The notes beneath the pieces are model-generated. The model saw only the letters and a program-made list of their open reading frames with translations, was not told where the DNA came from and ran no database searches. Both the position numbers and the translations under genes were made by a program. From positions 1 through 21,660 of the IMG/VR virus record IMGVR_UViG_3300025642_000033: a DNA stretch of 21,660 bases, one strand, 5' to 3'. The DNA is from a virus. Shown piece after piece: positions 2,391 through 11,775 of the stretch. The stretch's first letter is position 1. The number at the start of each line of letters is the position of its first letter.

Positions 2391-2530
2391 CCTATGATGG
2401 CAAGAAAGAGACGGGTTTCTGCTGGTCGTGTGGCCGACAATGCAAGAAGTTCTTTTGTAACGAGAAATGTTACAAGGCTTATAACAGAAAGAATGGTATA
2501 AAAAATAAGAAATTCGAGAAAAAGCCTTGA
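2387..2530 (+). CDS. Small zinc-ribbon-like protein, 47 aa
   Basis: The product has CWSCGRQC and FCNEKC, so Cys pairs at about residues 12/15/19 and 24/28, followed by a Lys/Arg-rich tail. That is a plausible single zinc knuckle, and a nucleic-acid-binding role is an inference. It is coupled to the previous gene through an ATGA overlap. Its TGA stop is part of the TTGACA -35 box of the promoter starting at 2527. Confidence 0.65.
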   Translation: MTYDGKKETGFCWSCGRQCKKFFCNEKCYKAYNRKNGIKNKKFEKKP

Positions 2531-2555
2531 CAGAATTAGAAATGTAGTGTATACT
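2527..2555 (+). promoter_or_regulatory. Sigma70 promoter of cassette A
   Basis: TTGACA at 2527-2532, a 17-base spacer, then TATACT at 2550-2555. This is a perfect -35 box with optimal spacing and a 5/6 -10 box. The expected transcription start is near 2562. It closely resembles the promoter at 5434-5462: both begin TTGACAGAA and have GTG directly before the -10, CTT after it, and TATGA further on. Confidence 0.8.
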
Positions 2556-2561
2556 TTATAT

Positions 2562-2713
2562 GAGGAGAAAAATTGAATATGAAACACAAATCCCGCAAAC
2601 AAAAAAAGTCGCCTATCTTTATGTCAACAATTAGCCCTTGCGGACACGAAACAAACGGTGACTACCTCGTTGAGAGGTCATTGTTTGCGGGTCGGGTTCG
2701 TATAGGGCTTTTT
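2562..2713 (+). ncRNA. Structured promoter-proximal RNA of cassette A
   Basis: Between the promoter and a U-run the RNA can form these elements. P1 pairs 2592-2602 (CCCGCAAACAA) with 2681-2691, 11 perfect bp. P2 pairs AGCCCT 2633-2638 with AGGGCT 2704-2709, extended by ACGAA 2646-2650 with TTCGT 2697-2701. P3 pairs 2652-2661 with 2678-2687. P4 pairs CCTC 2665-2668 with GAGG 2674-2677. The P1 3' strand lies inside the P2 loop and overlaps P3, so P1 is either a pseudoknot or an alternative fold that breaks the terminator. Cassette B (5469-5614) has the same order of elements. Function is unknown: attenuator, cis antitermination site or small RNA. A 49-codon ORF overlaps it. Confidence 0.55.
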
Positions 2714-2728
2714 AGTTTAAGGGGATAA
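2579..2728 (+). CDS. Possible 49-aa ORF overlapping cassette A RNA
   Basis: ATG 2579 follows GAGGAG (2562-2567) at about 11 bases. The frame runs through the hairpin and the U-run (GGG CTT TTT read as Gly-Leu-Phe) to TAA 2726-2728. The N-terminus is Lys-rich (MKHKSRKQKKSPIF). Compared with the 49-codon ORF at 5469, a KS...SP stretch aligns with several synonymous third-base differences (AAG/AAA, TCG/TCT, TCA/TCT, AGC/AGT), which hints at coding constraint. The same frame continues after the TAA into the DUF559-like remnant. It could be a real small protein, a leader peptide or a by-product of the RNA. Confidence 0.35.
   Translation: MKHKSRKQKKSPIFMSTISPCGHETNGDYLVERSLFAGRVRIGLFSLRG
2633..2713 (+). 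terminator. Intrinsic terminator of cassette A
   Basis: A long imperfect hairpin closed by AGCCCT/AGGGCT (2633-2638 with 2704-2709), extended by ACGAA/TTCGT, followed by five T (2709-2713). The hairpin loop is itself structured. The alternative pairing 2592-2602 with 2681-2691 would compete with its upper part. Confidence 0.6.
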
Positions 2729-3046
2729 AAAGAATTAAATTACCTTGAAGACTTAAAGGTTGTCCCTCAATATAAAATCGGTCAATATAGGGTAGATTTT
2801 TTGGTTGCAAAAAAGAAAGTAGTTATCATTGAGTGTGATTCACAGCAATTTCACGAGAGAACTGAGCCTGAAAGACGATATGAAAAAGCAAGAGACAGGT
2901 TCCTGCAAGTAGAAGGTTATAAAATATTTCATTATACTGGTGCAAGTATTAAAAATAATTCCTTAGATATAGCAAAGGAAATTATAGCCTATGTTTTAGA
3001 TTGTGATGAAAGATGTTTATGTAAAAGTGCTGATGGGATAAACTAG
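2729..3046 (+). pseudogene. DUF559/Vsr-like endonuclease without an intact start
   Basis: The frame from 2729 encodes a DUF559-type PD-(D/E)XK fold: PQYKIGQYRVDFLV with the catalytic-type Asp, then KKVVIIECDSQQFH, then RYEKARDRFLQVEGYKIFHYTG. Similarity to the family begins right after the TAA at 2726-2728, yet there is no ATG or GTG start. The first usable start, TTG 2801, comes after the Asp of YRVDF and would remove a catalytic residue. Options are a 5'-truncated endonuclease cut off by cassette A, readthrough of the TAA from the ORF at 2579 (same frame), or a sequencing error. Such domains in phages are often mobile or homing nucleases. Confidence 0.6.
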
Positions 3047-3056
3047 GGAGACCAAA

Positions 3057-3692
3057 ATGCCATATAAGAACATAATCTTTGTAAAGCTATTATGGAAAGA
3101 ATTGTTATTAGAGGACAACAGGTTTACTGAACTATGTAATGATGGACAAAAGGGGCTTTATTTAATGCTCCTCTTGCTCGCTGGAGCCACCAATAATAAC
3201 ATACCAGAAAGTGAAAATTACCTGAAAAGAACGTTAAATCTCGTTGAAAAACCTGAAATCGTTGCACAAAATAGGGATTTCCTGCTGTCCACTTTTCCTA
3301 AACTTATTAGGAGTAACGGTTATCTTAAGTTCAAGAAATTCAAGGGCTTACACAATTACCTTGGGAAGTCCAAAGTGGGTACAATCGGAAACGATTTGGG
3401 ACGTCCAAGAATAGATAAGAATAGAATAGAAGAGAATAGAATAGAAGAGAATAGAATAGATAAGATAAAAGTCAAAAAAGACATCTACCTAGAATTTGTC
3501 TTACTAACCAAAGAAGAGCTTGAAAAACTCGTTAAAAGATTTGGGGAACCTCAAATAAAAGATGGCATAGGGCGGCTCAATAATTACATCGGCTCAACAG
3601 GCAAAAAATATAAGTCGCATTATTTTACAATATTAAACTGGTTGGCAAAAGATGAGCCAGTTAAAAAGAAAGACGAGGGGTGGAAATTATGA
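3057..3692 (+). CDS. Replication initiator / helicase-loader-like protein
   Basis: A 211-residue protein. The N-terminal ~105 residues look like a winged-helix type domain (LLWKELLLED...GLYLMLLLLAG). Residues 118-140 are a charged repeat linker (RIDKNRIEEN...). The C-terminal module, about 147-198, has LTKEELEKLVKRFG...RLNNYIGS then KKYKSHYFTILNW, a pattern common at the end of phage DnaD-like or O-like replication proteins upstream of helicase genes. It probably binds the origin and/or loads the helicase encoded at 4097. The SD is GGGAG just upstream. The linker is encoded by a 15-bp tandem repeat that could itself be a DNA element. Confidence 0.65.
   Translation: MPYKNIIFVKLLWKELLLEDNRFTELCNDGQKGLYLMLLLLAGATNNNIPESENYLKRTLNLVEKPEIVAQNRDFLLSTFPKLIRSNGYLKFKKFKGLHNYLGKSKVGTIGNDLGRPRIDKNRIEENRIEENRIDKIKVKKDIYLEFVLLTKEELEKLVKRFGEPQIKDGIGRLNNYIGSTGKKYKSHYFTILNWLAKDEPVKKKDEGWKL
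3420..3464 (+). repeat. 15-bp tandem repeat inside the replication gene
   Basis: Three consecutive units: AATAGAATAGAAGAG twice (3420-3434, 3435-3449) and a near copy ending in ATAAG (3450-3464), preceded by a partial unit at 3411-3419. It encodes the RIEEN-type linker. Repeats inside initiator genes act as origins in lambda and several Gram-positive phages, so an origin is possible, but A/G-rich linker repeats also arise without that role. Confidence 0.6.
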
Positions 3693-3901
3693 AAAAAATA
3701 GATGGAGAGATGAAGGTAGACTTTGAGCAATTCCTAATGGATACACACGCAGAGGGTTATATTGGCACAGATGATATGATGAGTGATGCTTTTGAAGATT
3801 GGGTGCAAGATTTAAACATTGATGACTGGATTGAATATGGGAATTTATATGTCAAGAAAATACTTACCGACTCAGAGGGCAAGGGAAACTGGGCAGCATG
3901 A
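3689..3901 (+). CDS. Acidic hypothetical protein, 70 aa
   Basis: Not recognised. I chose ATG 3689 (overlapping the previous stop as ATGA) because GAGGGG lies 9-10 bases upstream. A GTG at 3680 sits on that SD. The product is strongly acidic (DDMMSDAFEDWVQDLNIDDW) and probably helical. It lies between the initiator and helicase genes, so it may be a replication accessory factor, by position only. The stop overlaps the next ATG. Confidence 0.6.
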   Translation: MKKIDGEMKVDFEQFLMDTHAEGYIGTDDMMSDAFEDWVQDLNIDDWIEYGNLYVKKILTDSEGKGNWAA

Positions 3902-4155
3902 TACCTCACACAAACGCAGATAAAGCCATATCAAACGAACTCCTTAGAATAGACCGTTCTATCTGGCACACCTTATCCTGTATTAAAGAAACATGCTCAA
4001 AACTTTATTTGTCTTGCTTACTATCAAACCCAGGATTCAGCGATTACATATTAGAAACAATTTTACTAATAGAAAAGGAACAGGGGGAAATACACAATGG
4101 TTATAAATCCCAAGGACGTCCAGAGGATAAGCAGTCACTTAGCTGGCTTACATAA
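3898..4155 (+). CDS. Hypothetical protein, 85 aa
   Basis: Not recognised. ATG 3898 overlaps the previous TGA (ATGA). The product is probably helical with four Cys (SCIKETC, LSCLL) and no clear zinc pattern. Its last 59 bases overlap the start of the helicase gene in another frame, which is long for this genome, so its true end or existence is less certain than its neighbours. Confidence 0.5.
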   Translation: MIPHTNADKAISNELLRIDRSIWHTLSCIKETCSKLYLSCLLSNPGFSDYILETILLIEKEQGEIHNGYKSQGRPEDKQSLSWLT

Positions 4156-5029
4156 AGACCTTTCAACCAGGCCGCCGAGTCCGAAATACCCTATATCATC
4201 CTTACCTCATTTTAATCGCAAGGCATGGGGGCTTCAATGTGGCAAAGTTACTGTAATCGCAGGTCGGACATCTTCCGGAAAATCCGCGCTATCAGAAGGA
4301 TTCGCTCTTGACTTAGCTGAAAACGGGGTTCCTACGCTATTTTTATCCTTAGAAATGGATGTTGCGTCTTTGACAGAAAGGGCTTTTTGTCGCACAATGC
4401 AGGTAGATAATTACTCCTTATTAACAGGACAATTTAAGTTTCAGAAGGAAATTCAGGACAAATGGAAGATTTTTACAGAGTCAATGGCGAAATTACCACT
4501 CCTTATAACCTGCGAAATAGGCAAGACCTTTAAGGAAGTAAATCAAATAGTAGAAGCCCTTGACCCTACGCCAAAAGCGGTATTCGTGGATTACATAGGA
4601 GCGATAGCTTTCAAGGACAGGCAGTCCAGGGAAATGATGAATGAATATATCCGGCAATTTAAGGAACTTGCTATAAAGAAGGATTTTATAGGTGTCTTAT
4701 GCAGTCAGATAAACAGACAAGGCGCGGTAGCCGGAGAGGAACCTCAGCTTCATCAATTAAAGGAGACTGGAAATCTCGAAGAAACCGCATCCGTTGTATT
4801 TTTAATCCACAATCCATACATAATGACGCATAACGAAGAGGACAGGGGCAAGGCTACTATTGTAATTGCGAAAAACAGAAACGGCAGGACAGGCCGGCAC
4901 AAGGTAAAGTTCGTTCCTCAGTATTATAGGTTCGAGGAGCTTGATACAGTGGAACCCAGTAATGACTCTTTATTTGAAGACGATAGTAAGCGGTTTCTGG
5001 ATACATTTGGCGGGAAGGTGGTAAAGTGA
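4097..5029 (+). CDS. DnaB-type replicative helicase (ATPase domain)
   Basis: A 310-residue RecA-fold helicase of the DnaB C-terminal family. Visible motifs: Walker A GRTSSGKS (56-63), the LFLSLEM motif with Glu (81-87), Walker B AVFVD (161-165), SQINR (203-207), and IAKNRNGRTG (257-266) containing the arginine-finger region. The N-terminal primase-binding domain of cellular DnaB is missing, as in many phage helicases. It would unwind the replication fork as a hexamer. The SD GGGGG lies 9 bases before ATG 4097. The initiator-like gene upstream and NinG-like gene downstream support a replication and recombination operon. Confidence 0.85.
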   Translation: MVINPKDVQRISSHLAGLHKDLSTRPPSPKYPISSLPHFNRKAWGLQCGKVTVIAGRTSSGKSALSEGFALDLAENGVPTLFLSLEMDVASLTERAFCRTMQVDNYSLLTGQFKFQKEIQDKWKIFTESMAKLPLLITCEIGKTFKEVNQIVEALDPTPKAVFVDYIGAIAFKDRQSREMMNEYIRQFKELAIKKDFIGVLCSQINRQGAVAGEEPQLHQLKETGNLEETASVVFLIHNPYIMTHNEEDRGKATIVIAKNRNGRTGRHKVKFVPQYYRFEELDTVEPSNDSLFEDDSKRFLDTFGGKVVK

Positions 5030-5472
5030 AACGCAAACAAAAACCCCTTAAAACCTTATCAAAACTAAAAAAAGACCTTTGGAAATTAGTATCAATATAT
5101 GTAAGAGTAAGCGAAGCAAACGGCGAAGGATTAGTTAGATGCGTTACCTGTGGCAAATGGCTCCATTGGACAAAAATGCAAGCAGGACATTTTATAGACG
5201 GCAGAACAAACTCTATTCTCTATGATTTACGAGGTGTACACCCCCAGGACATCAGGTGCAATATCTTCCTTTCAGGAAATAAAGTAGAATACACCCTTTA
5301 TATGCAGAAACGCTACGGGCAAGAAGTAGTAGACGAATTACGGCAACTCAGAAAAACTGAGAAGAAATATCTGCGGCATGAACTTGAAGACATGATTGCT
5401 GATTTCAAGGAACGATTAAAAAAATATAAACACTTGACAGAACGGAAAACATCGTGTATGCTTGTAATATGA
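5026..5472 (+). CDS. ninG: NinG/Rap-like recombination protein
   Basis: A 148-residue protein matching the lambda NinG family (Rap; PF05766). It has CVTCGKW (C39, C42), then MQAGHF (H55) with GR, DLRGVH (H72), RCN (C78) and LSGN: an HNH-like metal site with zinc ligands. Lambda Rap is a Holliday-junction/D-loop endonuclease that aids RecBCD- or Red-mediated exchange, and a similar role in resolving phage DNA branches is inferred. It starts with GTG overlapping the helicase stop (GTGA) after GGGAAGG. The second sigma70 promoter begins within its last codons. Confidence 0.8.
   Translation: MKRKQKPLKTLSKLKKDLWKLVSIYVRVSEANGEGLVRCVTCGKWLHWTKMQAGHFIDGRTNSILYDLRGVHPQDIRCNIFLSGNKVEYTLYMQKRYGQEVVDELRQLRKTEKKYLRHELEDMIADFKERLKKYKHLTERKTSCMLVI
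5434..5462 (+). promoter_or_regulatory. Sigma70 promoter of cassette B
   Basis: TTGACA at 5434-5439, a 17-base spacer, then TATGCT at 5457-5462. The -35 is perfect and the -10 is 4/6. It lies inside the end of the NinG-like gene. The flanks match promoter A: TTGACAGAA start, GTG before the -10, CTT after it, TATGA downstream. The expected start is near 5469. Confidence 0.7.
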
Positions 5473-5614
5473 TTACAACAACCCCCAACGATAAACAGAT
5501 GAGACGGACGGCTAAATCTTTTATTTTGTCTAACAGTCCTGTGGATAAAGAAAATGATTTGGCTTTCTCGCAAGAGAACTCATTTCGTTGGGGCTTTTCC
5601 ACAGGGCTTTTTTT
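5469..5614 (+). ncRNA. Structured promoter-proximal RNA of cassette B
   Basis: P1 pairs CCCCAACGA 5483-5491 with TCGTTGGGG 5585-5593 (9 perfect bp). P2 pairs 5535-5545 with 5598-5608 (11 bp, one G-U), plus AAAG 5547-5550 with CTTT 5594-5597 across one bulged T. P3 pairs AAATGA 5552-5557 with TCATTT 5580-5585. P4 pairs TTCTC 5565-5569 with GAGAA 5574-5578, closed by a GCAA tetraloop. The 3' strand of P1 occupies what is otherwise an unpaired bulge between P3 and P2, so a pseudoknot is sterically suggested. The RNA ends in seven U. Same element order as cassette A. Function is unknown; it precedes the MCQF-repeat gene at 5635. Confidence 0.6.
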
Positions 5615-5618
5615 ATAA
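5469..5618 (+). CDS. Possible 49-aa ORF overlapping cassette B RNA
   Basis: ATG 5469 lies at about the predicted transcription start, so translation would be nearly leaderless. No SD fits. The 49 codons read through P2 (AGT CCT = Ser-Pro) and the terminator (GGG CTT TTT = Gly-Leu-Phe) to TAA 5616-5618. The ORF at 2579 has the same length and the same frame for both P2 strands. The KSFILSNSP stretch resembles the KSPIF...ISP stretch there. It may be a genuine tiny gene or a consequence of RNA conservation. Confidence 0.35.
   Translation: MITTTPNDKQMRRTAKSFILSNSPVDKENDLAFSQENSFRWGFSTGLFL
5535..5614 (+). terminator. Intrinsic terminator of cassette B
   Basis: An 11-bp stem (5535-5545 with 5598-5608, core CCTGTGGA/TCCACAGG) with a structured loop, followed by seven T at 5608-5614. 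It ends 20 bases before the start of the MCQF gene, so that gene is expressed only by readthrough or when termination is blocked. Confidence 0.75.
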
Positions 5619-5634
5619 CGGACAGGAGGAACAA

Positions 5635-6225
5635 ATGTGCCAATTTATTAGCTGGGTAGAGGAAGATAACAAACCTTATTATTTAGATAATAAGGCGTTA
5701 AAAACCAAAGAAGGAAAGTCTCTCCTTAAATACCTCAGAGACAACGACTCCCTCTGTGATTTACAAGGACACGGAGCATTGAGAAGATACTACTCTGAGT
5801 TAAAAGGAAGGAATATGGAGTGTACTGATTTTTCTACACCTAAAAACTTCCCAAAAGAAATAGTCAACTCTATAAAGAATATGGAAATGACTAATATTCC
5901 CCTTGGTGATGAAATTCCCTTGGGTTTGCTCAATAGCGAGGGTCGAGCTGAGTATGAGAAGACAACGCAACTTGCATGGGCTGAGTATCAGAAGATAAAG
6001 CAATCTGCATGGGCTGAGTATGAGAAGATAAGGCAACCTGCATTGGCTAAGTATGAGAAGATAAGGCAATCTGCATGGGCTGAGTATCAGAAGACAGAGC
6101 AACTTGCATGGGCTGAGTATCAGAAGATAAAGCAATCTGCATGGGCTGAGTATGAGAAGATAGAGCAACCTGCATTATGGAAACTCTTTAAACAGGAAGA
6201 GTATAGAAATAAGCTTTGGATTTAA
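5635..6225 (+). CDS. MCQF-domain protein with 11-residue tandem repeats
   Basis: A 196-residue protein of unknown function. It starts MCQFISWVEED and has PYYLD, a GHGALRRYY segment and MECTDFSTPKNFPKEIV in its N-terminal ~100 residues. Next come seven tandem 11-residue repeats (AEYEKIRQSAW type) and a short C-terminus. I chose ATG 5635 because AGGAGG lies 6 bases before it; the frame stays open upstream into the terminator but without an SD. It shares the MCQF-S...D..PYY-D start with the product of 6892. Cys2 would be N-terminal after Met removal, as in Ntn-type amidotransferases or SRAP proteins; this is only a suggestion. The repeats look helical and may be hypervariable. Confidence 0.75.
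   Translation: MCQFISWVEEDNKPYYLDNKALKTKEGKSLLKYLRDNDSLCDLQGHGALRRYYSELKGRNMECTDFSTPKNFPKEIVNSIKNMEMTNIPLGDEIPLGLLNSEGRAEYEKTTQLAWAEYQKIKQSAWAEYEKIRQPALAKYEKIRQSAWAEYQKTEQLAWAEYQKIKQSAWAEYEKIEQPALWKLFKQEEYRNKLWI
5947..6177 (+). repeat. Seven 33-bp tandem repeats in the MCQF gene
   Basis: Seven in-frame units of 33 bp, each starting GCTRAGTAT and encoding A-E-Y-E/Q-K-I/T-x-Q-S/L/P-A-W/L. The ninth residue runs L,S,P,S,L,S,P. Unit 2 is identical to unit 6, and units 1-3 resemble units 5-7, so the array shows a 4-unit (132-bp) higher-order period and probably grew by segmental duplication. Confidence 0.9.
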
Positions 6226-6571: not shown

Positions 6572-6892
6572 ATGGCTATGGAACATCAGGATATAGAAGA
6601 ACAGAACGCGCGATGTAATATCTGCTCAAGAGGCTTATTGCCAATAGAGGCCTTCTTATATGGTAACCGTTGCGTATTCTGCACAGAGCCCACAAGGATA
6701 GGTATATTCCGCTGGATACTTCATTCCACGGTTGATTACCTTATATACCTACAGATGCTACGGATTAAGAAATTTGAAGACGCGCGCTTTAAGTTTCTCG
6801 GAGCGCTGAGTATGTTTTCTCGGGACATTAACGAGATAAAGAGCATATTTACAAAACTAGAGCTCCTTGGAGAGCTGAGGGGGATAAAATAA
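6572..6892 (+). CDS. Zinc-binding hypothetical protein, 106 aa
   Basis: The N-terminal 40 residues contain CNICSRG and CVFC, a treble-clef or ribbon-type zinc site. The rest is helical with an amphipathic C-terminal segment (DINEIKSIFTKLELL). AGGATGG precedes the start. The last base overlaps the ATG of the next gene (TAATG). No family is recognised. Confidence 0.6.
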   Translation: MAMEHQDIEEQNARCNICSRGLLPIEAFLYGNRCVFCTEPTRIGIFRWILHSTVDYLIYLQMLRIKKFEDARFKFLGALSMFSRDINEIKSIFTKLELLGELRGIK

Positions 6893-7653
6893 TGTGTCAA
6901 TTTTTCAGTGTTTGCAGTAAAGACGGACAGCCTTATTACTTTGATTGGGCATTAAGAGAAAAGGTAATCAAGGGAGAATTAAAGTTTGAACCTGACTCGC
7001 ACACATCTATCCTTGATTATTATGGATTTAAAGGACTGGCTCAAGATAGATTTAATAAGTATGAATATAATCCTCTAACTAAGAACTTTCAGATAGACAG
7101 GCTTTGTACTGAAGACGACTCTATCCTTATTAAAGACTTCTGTGAAAAACTTAACTTTAAAAGGATTGTTCCTCAACTTACTTTTAATCCCATTATTCAC
7201 CCATTTAAAGACAGAGACGCCAAAAAAGTCACTAAGTCTGACCTAAAACTCCTTAAACAATGGGCCAGCGTGTGGGCCAGCGTGTGGGCCAGCGTGGGGG
7301 ACAGCGTGTGGGACAGCGTGTGGGACAGCGTGAGGGACAGCGTGGGGGACAGCGTGAGGGACAGCGTGTGGGACAGCGTGAGGGCCAGCGTGAGGGCCAG
7401 CGTGTGGGACAGCGTGTGGGACAGCGTGAGGGACAGCGTGGGGGACAGCGTGGGGGACAGCGTGTGGGCGTATACTTCTAACCAATTCACCTTAGATAAA
7501 TGGAAATACATAAAACACGAAAAAGGAGTCAATCCTTACCAGTGCTTAATAGACTTATGGGAAAAGGGGTTAGTGCCAACTTATGATGGAAAGATTTGGT
7601 ATCTGTTGGGTGGAAAGAAGGTTAAGATAATTTGGAAAGGTAAGATAAAATAA
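6892..7653 (+). CDS. MCQF-domain protein with WDSV-type 4-residue repeats
   Basis: A 253-residue protein with three parts. The N-terminal ~120 residues start MCQFFSVCSKDGQPYYFD. A central block of 17 four-residue repeats follows (W/G/R-A/D-S-V). The C-terminal ~65 residues end in a basic tail (KKVKIIWKGKIK). The N-terminus is related to that of the protein at 5635. Phage proteins with WASV/RDSV repeats exist but I know no proven function. Position between small zinc proteins and the exonuclease gives no strong hint. The SD GAGGGG lies about 9 bases upstream. A repeat of this kind may form a beta-solenoid or helical rod. Confidence 0.75.
   Translation: MCQFFSVCSKDGQPYYFDWALREKVIKGELKFEPDSHTSILDYYGFKGLAQDRFNKYEYNPLTKNFQIDRLCTEDDSILIKDFCEKLNFKRIVPQLTFNPIIHPFKDRDAKKVTKSDLKLLKQWASVWASVWASVGDSVWDSVWDSVRDSVGDSVRDSVWDSVRASVRASVWDSVWDSVRDSVGDSVGDSVWAYTSNQFTLDKWKYIKHEKGVNPYQCLIDLWEKGLVPTYDGKIWYLLGGKKVKIIWKGKIK
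7261..7464 (+). repeat. Seventeen 12-bp tandem repeats (WDSV array)
   Basis: Seventeen contiguous units of consensus DGGGMCAGCGTG. Only two bases vary: base 1 is T, A or G (Trp, Arg or Gly codon) and base 5 is A or C (Asp or Ala codon). The AGC GTG half is invariant. The array is open in several frames on both strands, which creates spurious ORFs. The G-rich strand and uniform units favour slippage or recombination that keeps the frame. Confidence 0.95.
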
Positions 7654-11558: not shown

Positions 11559-11669
11559 ATGGGTAAAGGCTCGAGAAGAAGACAAGAAGATTCAAAGAAG
11601 ATACGCGACAACTGGGACAAGATTAAATGGCCTGAGAAAAAAAGATTAAATAAACCCTTGACAAAATAG
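11559..11669 (+). CDS. Small basic phage protein (MGKGSRRR type), 36 aa
   Basis: The product begins MGKGSRRRQEDSKKIRDNWD and ends Lys-rich. Very short phage proteins starting MGKGS with a basic run and a following N-Y/W-D are frequent, so I take it as real although no function is known. The SD is weak (GGGTGAG). Promoter 11658-11686 begins inside its last codons. Confidence 0.65.
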   Translation: MGKGSRRRQEDSKKIRDNWDKIKWPEKKRLNKPLTK

Positions 11670-11686
11670 GGAACGTGTGGTATAAT
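11658..11686 (+). promoter_or_regulatory. Consensus sigma70 promoter
   Basis: TTGACA at 11658-11663, a 17-base spacer, TATAAT at 11681-11686, with TGG before the -10 (extended -10 TGn). All twelve consensus bases match. The expected start is near 11693. It reads toward the tRNA and late genes through a terminator. Confidence 0.9.
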
Positions 11687-11703
11687 ATATAAGACAATAA
11701 GGT

Positions 11704-11744
11704 AGGAGCGAATCTTGAGGGGATTAGCTTTATTCAGGTTGTGA
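11704..11744 (+). promoter_or_regulatory. Possible leader peptide over an attenuator
   Basis: AGGAG at 11704-11708 is 6 bases before TTG 11715, which opens a 9-codon frame (MRGLALFRL) ending at TGA 11742-11744. It covers the 5' arm of the terminator stem and the first arm of the inner hairpin. Translation could therefore block termination. The very short length means it could be chance. Confidence 0.3.
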
Positions 11745-11772
11745 ACCTGGACAGGGCGAAATCCCCTTTTTT
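11718..11772 (+). terminator. Intrinsic terminator shortly after the consensus promoter
   Basis: AGGGGATT 11718-11725 pairs with AATCCCCT 11760-11767, with six T at 11767-11772. The loop contains a second perfect hairpin CAGGTT-GTG-AACCTG at 11735-11749. The transcript from the promoter would be about 80 nt if terminated here. Confidence 0.75.
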
Positions 11773-11775
11773 ATT

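Follow-up and report, generated by a model that had tools for sequence, protein, structure and literature searches.

What kind of element is a near-consensus phage promoter that leads, through a folded RNA of about 150 nt, into a terminator placed ahead of a gene? The question is raised by two cassettes in the window, which is the whole 21,660-nt stretch of DNA analysed here, a 21.7-kb virus record whose main genes all lie on the + strand. The record opens with a reading frame (5-781) that begins with an apparent intein C-terminal part (ending ...GKIFLTGN), followed immediately by a putative metallophosphatase GNHE motif. A sequence-only reading had described the cassettes, at 2527-2713 and 5434-5614, as paralogous promoter-RNA-terminator units with a pseudoknot-like layout, and had named an attenuator, an antitermination RNA of the HK022 put kind and a small RNA as candidates. 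The near-consensus promoters, the helices and the U-runs were all recovered at both places.

Crossing helices in the two cassettes

Both cassettes lie on the + strand and open with a promoter of 17-nt spacing. In cassette 1 this is TTGACA-17-TATACT (2527-2555; 11/12 consensus). P1a (CCCGCAAACAA, 2592-2602) pairs over 11 bp with P1b (TTGTTTGCGGG, 2681-2691). P3a (GTCGCC, 2608-2613) pairs with P3b (GGTGAC, 2657-2662) in the minimum-energy fold, and the P4 hairpin (ACCTC gttga GAGGT) is predicted at 2664-2678. P2a (AGCCCT, 2633-2638), located within the P3 loop, pairs with P2b (2704-2709), which runs into a U-run to give an intrinsic-terminator-like end (AGGGCTTTTT, 2704-2713). The promoter of cassette 2 is TTGACA-17-TATGCT (5434-5462; 10/12 consensus). 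Here P1a (CCCCAACGA, 5483-5491) forms 9 bp with P1b (TCGTTGGGG, 5585-5593), P3a (GGCTAAATC, 5510-5518) pairs with 5556-5564, and the predicted P4 hairpin (TTCTC gcaa GAGAA) occupies 5565-5578. The minimum-energy fold contains an extra stem, whose 5' arm (GATGAG, 5498-5503) pairs with 5579-5584. P2a (AGTCCTGTGGA, 5535-5545) forms 11 bp with P2b (5598-5608), the latter continuing into the U-run (TCCACAGGGCT then T's, 5598-5614). The perfect P1 pairing of 9-11 bp described earlier was thus found in both cassettes, and P3 and P4 are paired in both minimum-energy folds. The P2 stem with its U-run is also present in both, with the 6 bp described earlier in cassette 1 but 11 bp in cassette 2. In each cassette P1 (9-11 bp) crosses P2 (6-11 bp).

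MAFFT left P1 of the two cassettes out of register, so a structural descriptor (crossing P1 and P2 plus a U-run) was used in place of a covariance model. On both strands of the window it matches the two cassettes only. In 1227 dinucleotide-shuffled windows it gave 7 matches, or 0.006 per window, a figure that serves as a guide rather than a strict probability because the descriptor was devised after both cassettes had been inspected. Two matches against 0.006 expected agree with the earlier view that the pseudoknot-like layout is unlikely to be accidental. By chance, a compact, AT-rich genome might place strong terminators behind promoters, the 5' complementarity then being a coincidence. The late date of the descriptor and the many promoters tested leave some room for this reading, but the shuffle controls and an independent orthologous pair in two other phages (L069 and L227, described below) already disfavour it, and we regard it as very improbable.

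The nested folding energy is better than that of shuffled sequence in both cassettes (z -2.4 for cassette 1 and -4.5 for cassette 2), and the trimmed RNAs give z values of -3.1 and -3.6, respectively. The alternative folds containing P1 or P2 differ by about 5 kcal/mol or less (-43.5 vs -39.9 kcal/mol in cassette 1; -42.2 vs -37.3 kcal/mol in cassette 2), and such near-equal energies are as expected of a switch.

An open frame spans each cassette, and each might encode a small protein of about 50 codons, from a leaderless or an ordinary gene. In cassette 2 the frame (5469-5618, + strand) begins with an ATG at the predicted transcription start and crosses the terminator. Such a 5' AUG, exactly 6 nt past the -10 box, is found in three of five units of this layout (cassette 2 and those of L069 and L103). 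Across the contigs of phages that share the gene behind cassette 2 (the MCQF gene), an ATG 6-8 nt past the -10 box is about twofold enriched after strong promoters, which suggests leaderless transcripts in this group. Against a protein, codon usage in 5469-5618 is not coding-like (-0.02 per codon, compared with +0.09 for genes), no family match was obtained, and no such frame exists in L227. We therefore give a coding function hardly any credence.

The layout in other phages

Sequence searches found no close relatives of either cassette, so phages sharing the MCQF gene were collected and most of those contigs were fetched. The promoter pattern occurs at 30 loci in viral contigs, none of which carries the RNA, and the pattern AGYCCT/TCATT/AGGGCTTTTT returned 22 loci with no clear homologue as judged by eye. 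A DnaB query retrieved no relatives, and a TerL query yielded two 99% sister contigs, both of which start downstream of the cassettes. Neither cassette reaches the gathering score of any Rfam family.

A total of 1.82 Mb, mostly related phage contigs, was scanned for a promoter followed by crossing helices and a U-run. Four units score at least 44, where 0.2 would be expected. They are the two cassettes, one in L069 (3602-3745) and one on the minus strand of L103. A fifth, in L227, was located by a search with the L069 helicase (0.05 expected). The order promoter, P1a, P2a, P1b, P2b with U-run, gene is therefore also present, in unrelated sequence, in three other uncultured phages, and the layout exists beyond the window. 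Two further matches were set aside, one in L119 (score 44.5) for its weak promoter match (9/12) and one in L235 as repeat-driven. On the minus strand of L156, at about 14983, a strong promoter likewise opens onto a leader that is about 145 nt long, has a terminator and folds very stably (z -4.8), apparently as simple hairpins.

The L069 and L227 units are orthologous: each immediately precedes the gene for the same primase-helicase (66% identical at the protein level); at the locus of the L228 helicase (64% identity) no unit was found. Between the two, all 8 pairs of P1 are kept with 2 double changes, a flipped pair being seen within otherwise similar arms. P2, in the register adopted, keeps all 11 pairs and shows 8 double changes. 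Compensatory changes in orthologous copies, with P1 still paired, are thus seen in this pair, which provides the best evidence for selection on the pairing. The inner architecture varies: in L069 and L227 a hairpin with a U-tail separates P1a from P2a, the two cassettes contain P3 and P4, and L103 contains neither. Since both sequence and inner architecture differ, the five units may not form one family. Of the two alternative folds, that with P2 is much the more stable in L103 and L069, so P1 may matter little.

Relationship between the two cassettes

The claim that the cassettes are paralogues had rested on promoters that match beyond the boxes. The likeness exists, but it is not specific to the cassettes: of the 34 non-box positions in the cassette 2 promoter, 26 are shared by a promoter of L213 but only 17 by that of cassette 1. 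From these comparisons, it is a promoter type that also occurs in related phages. Once promoter and terminator are removed, little likeness is left between the RNA bodies; their local alignment score is no better than that of shuffled sequence, and the global score was equalled by 5 of 1000 shuffles. The L213 promoter and the dissimilar bodies weaken the argument from the promoter, and common descent is possible rather than shown because similar promoters occur elsewhere in the group and the bodies are hardly alike. The covariation noted earlier has a basis in five double changes in P1 and two in P4, but it is suggestive only, as just two sequences are compared and their alignment was set by the pairing itself.

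Genes behind the cassettes

About 10 nt past the cassette 2 U-run lies a ribosome-binding site (AGGAGG, 5624-5629, + strand), followed by the MCQF family gene (5635-6225, + strand), which has WAEYEKI-type repeats and homologues in L071, L072 and L115. Short tandem repeats (WAEYEKI, WASVWDSV) characterise the MCQF-family proteins of the window, encoded at 5635-6225 and 6892-7653, and homologues occur in uncultured phages (about 45 contigs) and in a few contigs of MAGs (Methanoperedens, Fibrobacteres, Patescibacteria). In L071, L072 and L115 a consensus promoter is located 33-42 nt upstream of MCQF with no terminator in between. In the window the -10 box is 172 nt upstream of the gene, and the folded terminator intervenes. 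No unit was found upstream of the MCQF homologues in other phages. Because the three relatives have plain promoters at this position, the cassette 2 promoter is probably the MCQF gene's own.

For the same reason the cassettes were read as 5' leaders. Two features predicted from the sequence fit this: a promoter directly upstream of the leader and a terminator (P2 with U-run) between promoter and gene. The distance from the U-run to the ribosome-binding site or start of the next gene is about 0-25 nt in cassette 2, L069, L103 and L227, which is weak evidence because phage genes are packed. Cassette 1 counts against the leader reading. The DUF559 endonuclease-like frame downstream of it (2729-3046, + strand; Pfam PF04480) has no ATG, GTG or TTG within 2717-2800, and its first canonical start is at 2801 at the earliest, inside the domain. 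DUF559 domain-like sequence extends upstream of 2801 in the same frame.

A proposed gated leader

The reading we prefer takes the cassettes as promoters and 5' leaders of the genes behind them, that is, as cis-acting attenuators in which P1 competes or interlocks with P2; we hold it at somewhat short of an even chance. Among the candidates first named, the attenuator is the best supported, given the terminator between promoter and gene and the plain promoters in L071, L072 and L115. The folded RNA is probably a switch for the gene behind it. The leader would end in an intrinsic terminator, P2 with its U-run, whose large loop holds P1b. The 5'-proximal P1a would pair with P1b, and the result would be an H-type pseudoknot or else two folds that exclude each other. 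Since transcription reaches P1b ahead of P2b, P1 is able to form first; it would then hold P2a, within P3, so that termination becomes conditional. Read-through would express the gene, and termination would release an RNA of about 150 nt. A plausible trigger would be a ribosome at the 5' AUG that covers P1a. P1 need not block P2, since the two share no sequence and both may form together. We infer that the cassettes produce RNA, with P2 acting as a terminator and P1 as its gate.

A free trans-acting small RNA gene, with its promoter, compact pseudoknotted RNA, helix-protected ends and own terminator, is a less likely account, to which we give perhaps one chance in four. It fits the self-contained units of about 150 nt, the fold z-scores, which are strong (-2.1 to -5.8), the pairing of the 5' end in both L069 and L103, and the presence of two copies, each before an unrelated gene. 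However, the units lack the conserved sequence to be expected if a regulator acted on a single target or bound one protein, no complementarity that stands out was seen between them and the remaining window sequence (judged by eye, with no shuffled control), and relatives carry a plain promoter where cassette 2 sits.

Comparison with known systems

In phage HK022, put is a structured RNA located right after an early promoter; it acts on downstream terminators and is not known to have a terminator of its own. Each cassette, in contrast, has its own U-run terminator, and HK022 yielded no architecture match and no similarity above shuffled sequence. For these two reasons the put-like candidate is not favoured. 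Phage lambda places a strong promoter, a short leader RNA and a terminator ahead of a gene block (pR'-6S RNA-tR'), and no crossing helices were found in it. The better counterpart of this late leader in the window is not the cassettes but a third promoter-RNA-terminator unit at 11658-11775. The promoter of that unit matches the consensus at 12/12 positions and includes TG; an 80-nt leader comes next, then a GGGGATT/AATCCCC terminator, immediately ahead of tRNA-Thr, terS and terL. Its fold has a z of -3.6, no crossing helices were found, and it looks like a late leader of the lambda pR'-tR' type.

Attenuators and transcriptional riboswitches resemble the cassettes in the order of promoter, pseudoknotted structured leader, intrinsic terminator and regulated gene. 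The fluoride riboswitch, for example, combines a pseudoknotted aptamer with an intrinsic terminator (PMC11077080). Unlike riboswitches, the cassettes have no conserved ligand-binding sequence and no Rfam match, and their pseudoknot uses the terminator's own loop. On present evidence they would work like an attenuator.

The nearest known cassettes are the PeSLs of T4-like phages, units of a promoter and a stem-loop (Arbiol 2010; Comeau 2014); the account in PMC4503421 describes these as promoter stem-loops through which genes are shuffled. As far as that account goes, the likeness lies in small promoter-terminator units within phage intergenic spaces, and the difference in the crossing helices and length of about 150 nt of the present cassettes, whose copies share very little sequence identity and of which no sequence-conserved copies were seen. 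A comparable mobile regulatory cassette, a portable expression unit and recombination linker in which the pseudoknot is secondary, would explain why the DUF559-replication-NinG segment (2717-5433) has a unit on either side, both in direct orientation, and why presence varies among orthologous helicase loci (L069 and L227 with, L228 without). The two bodies share almost no sequence and so offer little basis for homologous recombination, and the crossing helices are kept with compensatory change, which a mere linker would not need. This origin seems unlikely to us.

Returning to the attenuator reading, a broader and more doubtful proposal is that such leaders constitute a class set by topology rather than sequence. 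In this class, each transcript would use its 5' end to pair into the loop of the terminator that it carries (P1a-P2a-P1b-P2b-U) and so gate read-through, perhaps via a ribosome at a leaderless AUG over P1a. If this is true, uncultured phages gate terminators by the transcript's own 5' end, with the fold kept through base pairing alone; such regulators would therefore be absent from RNA family libraries and would be missed by sequence-based RNA searches, and a simple descriptor would be at hand for finding further leaders of this kind.
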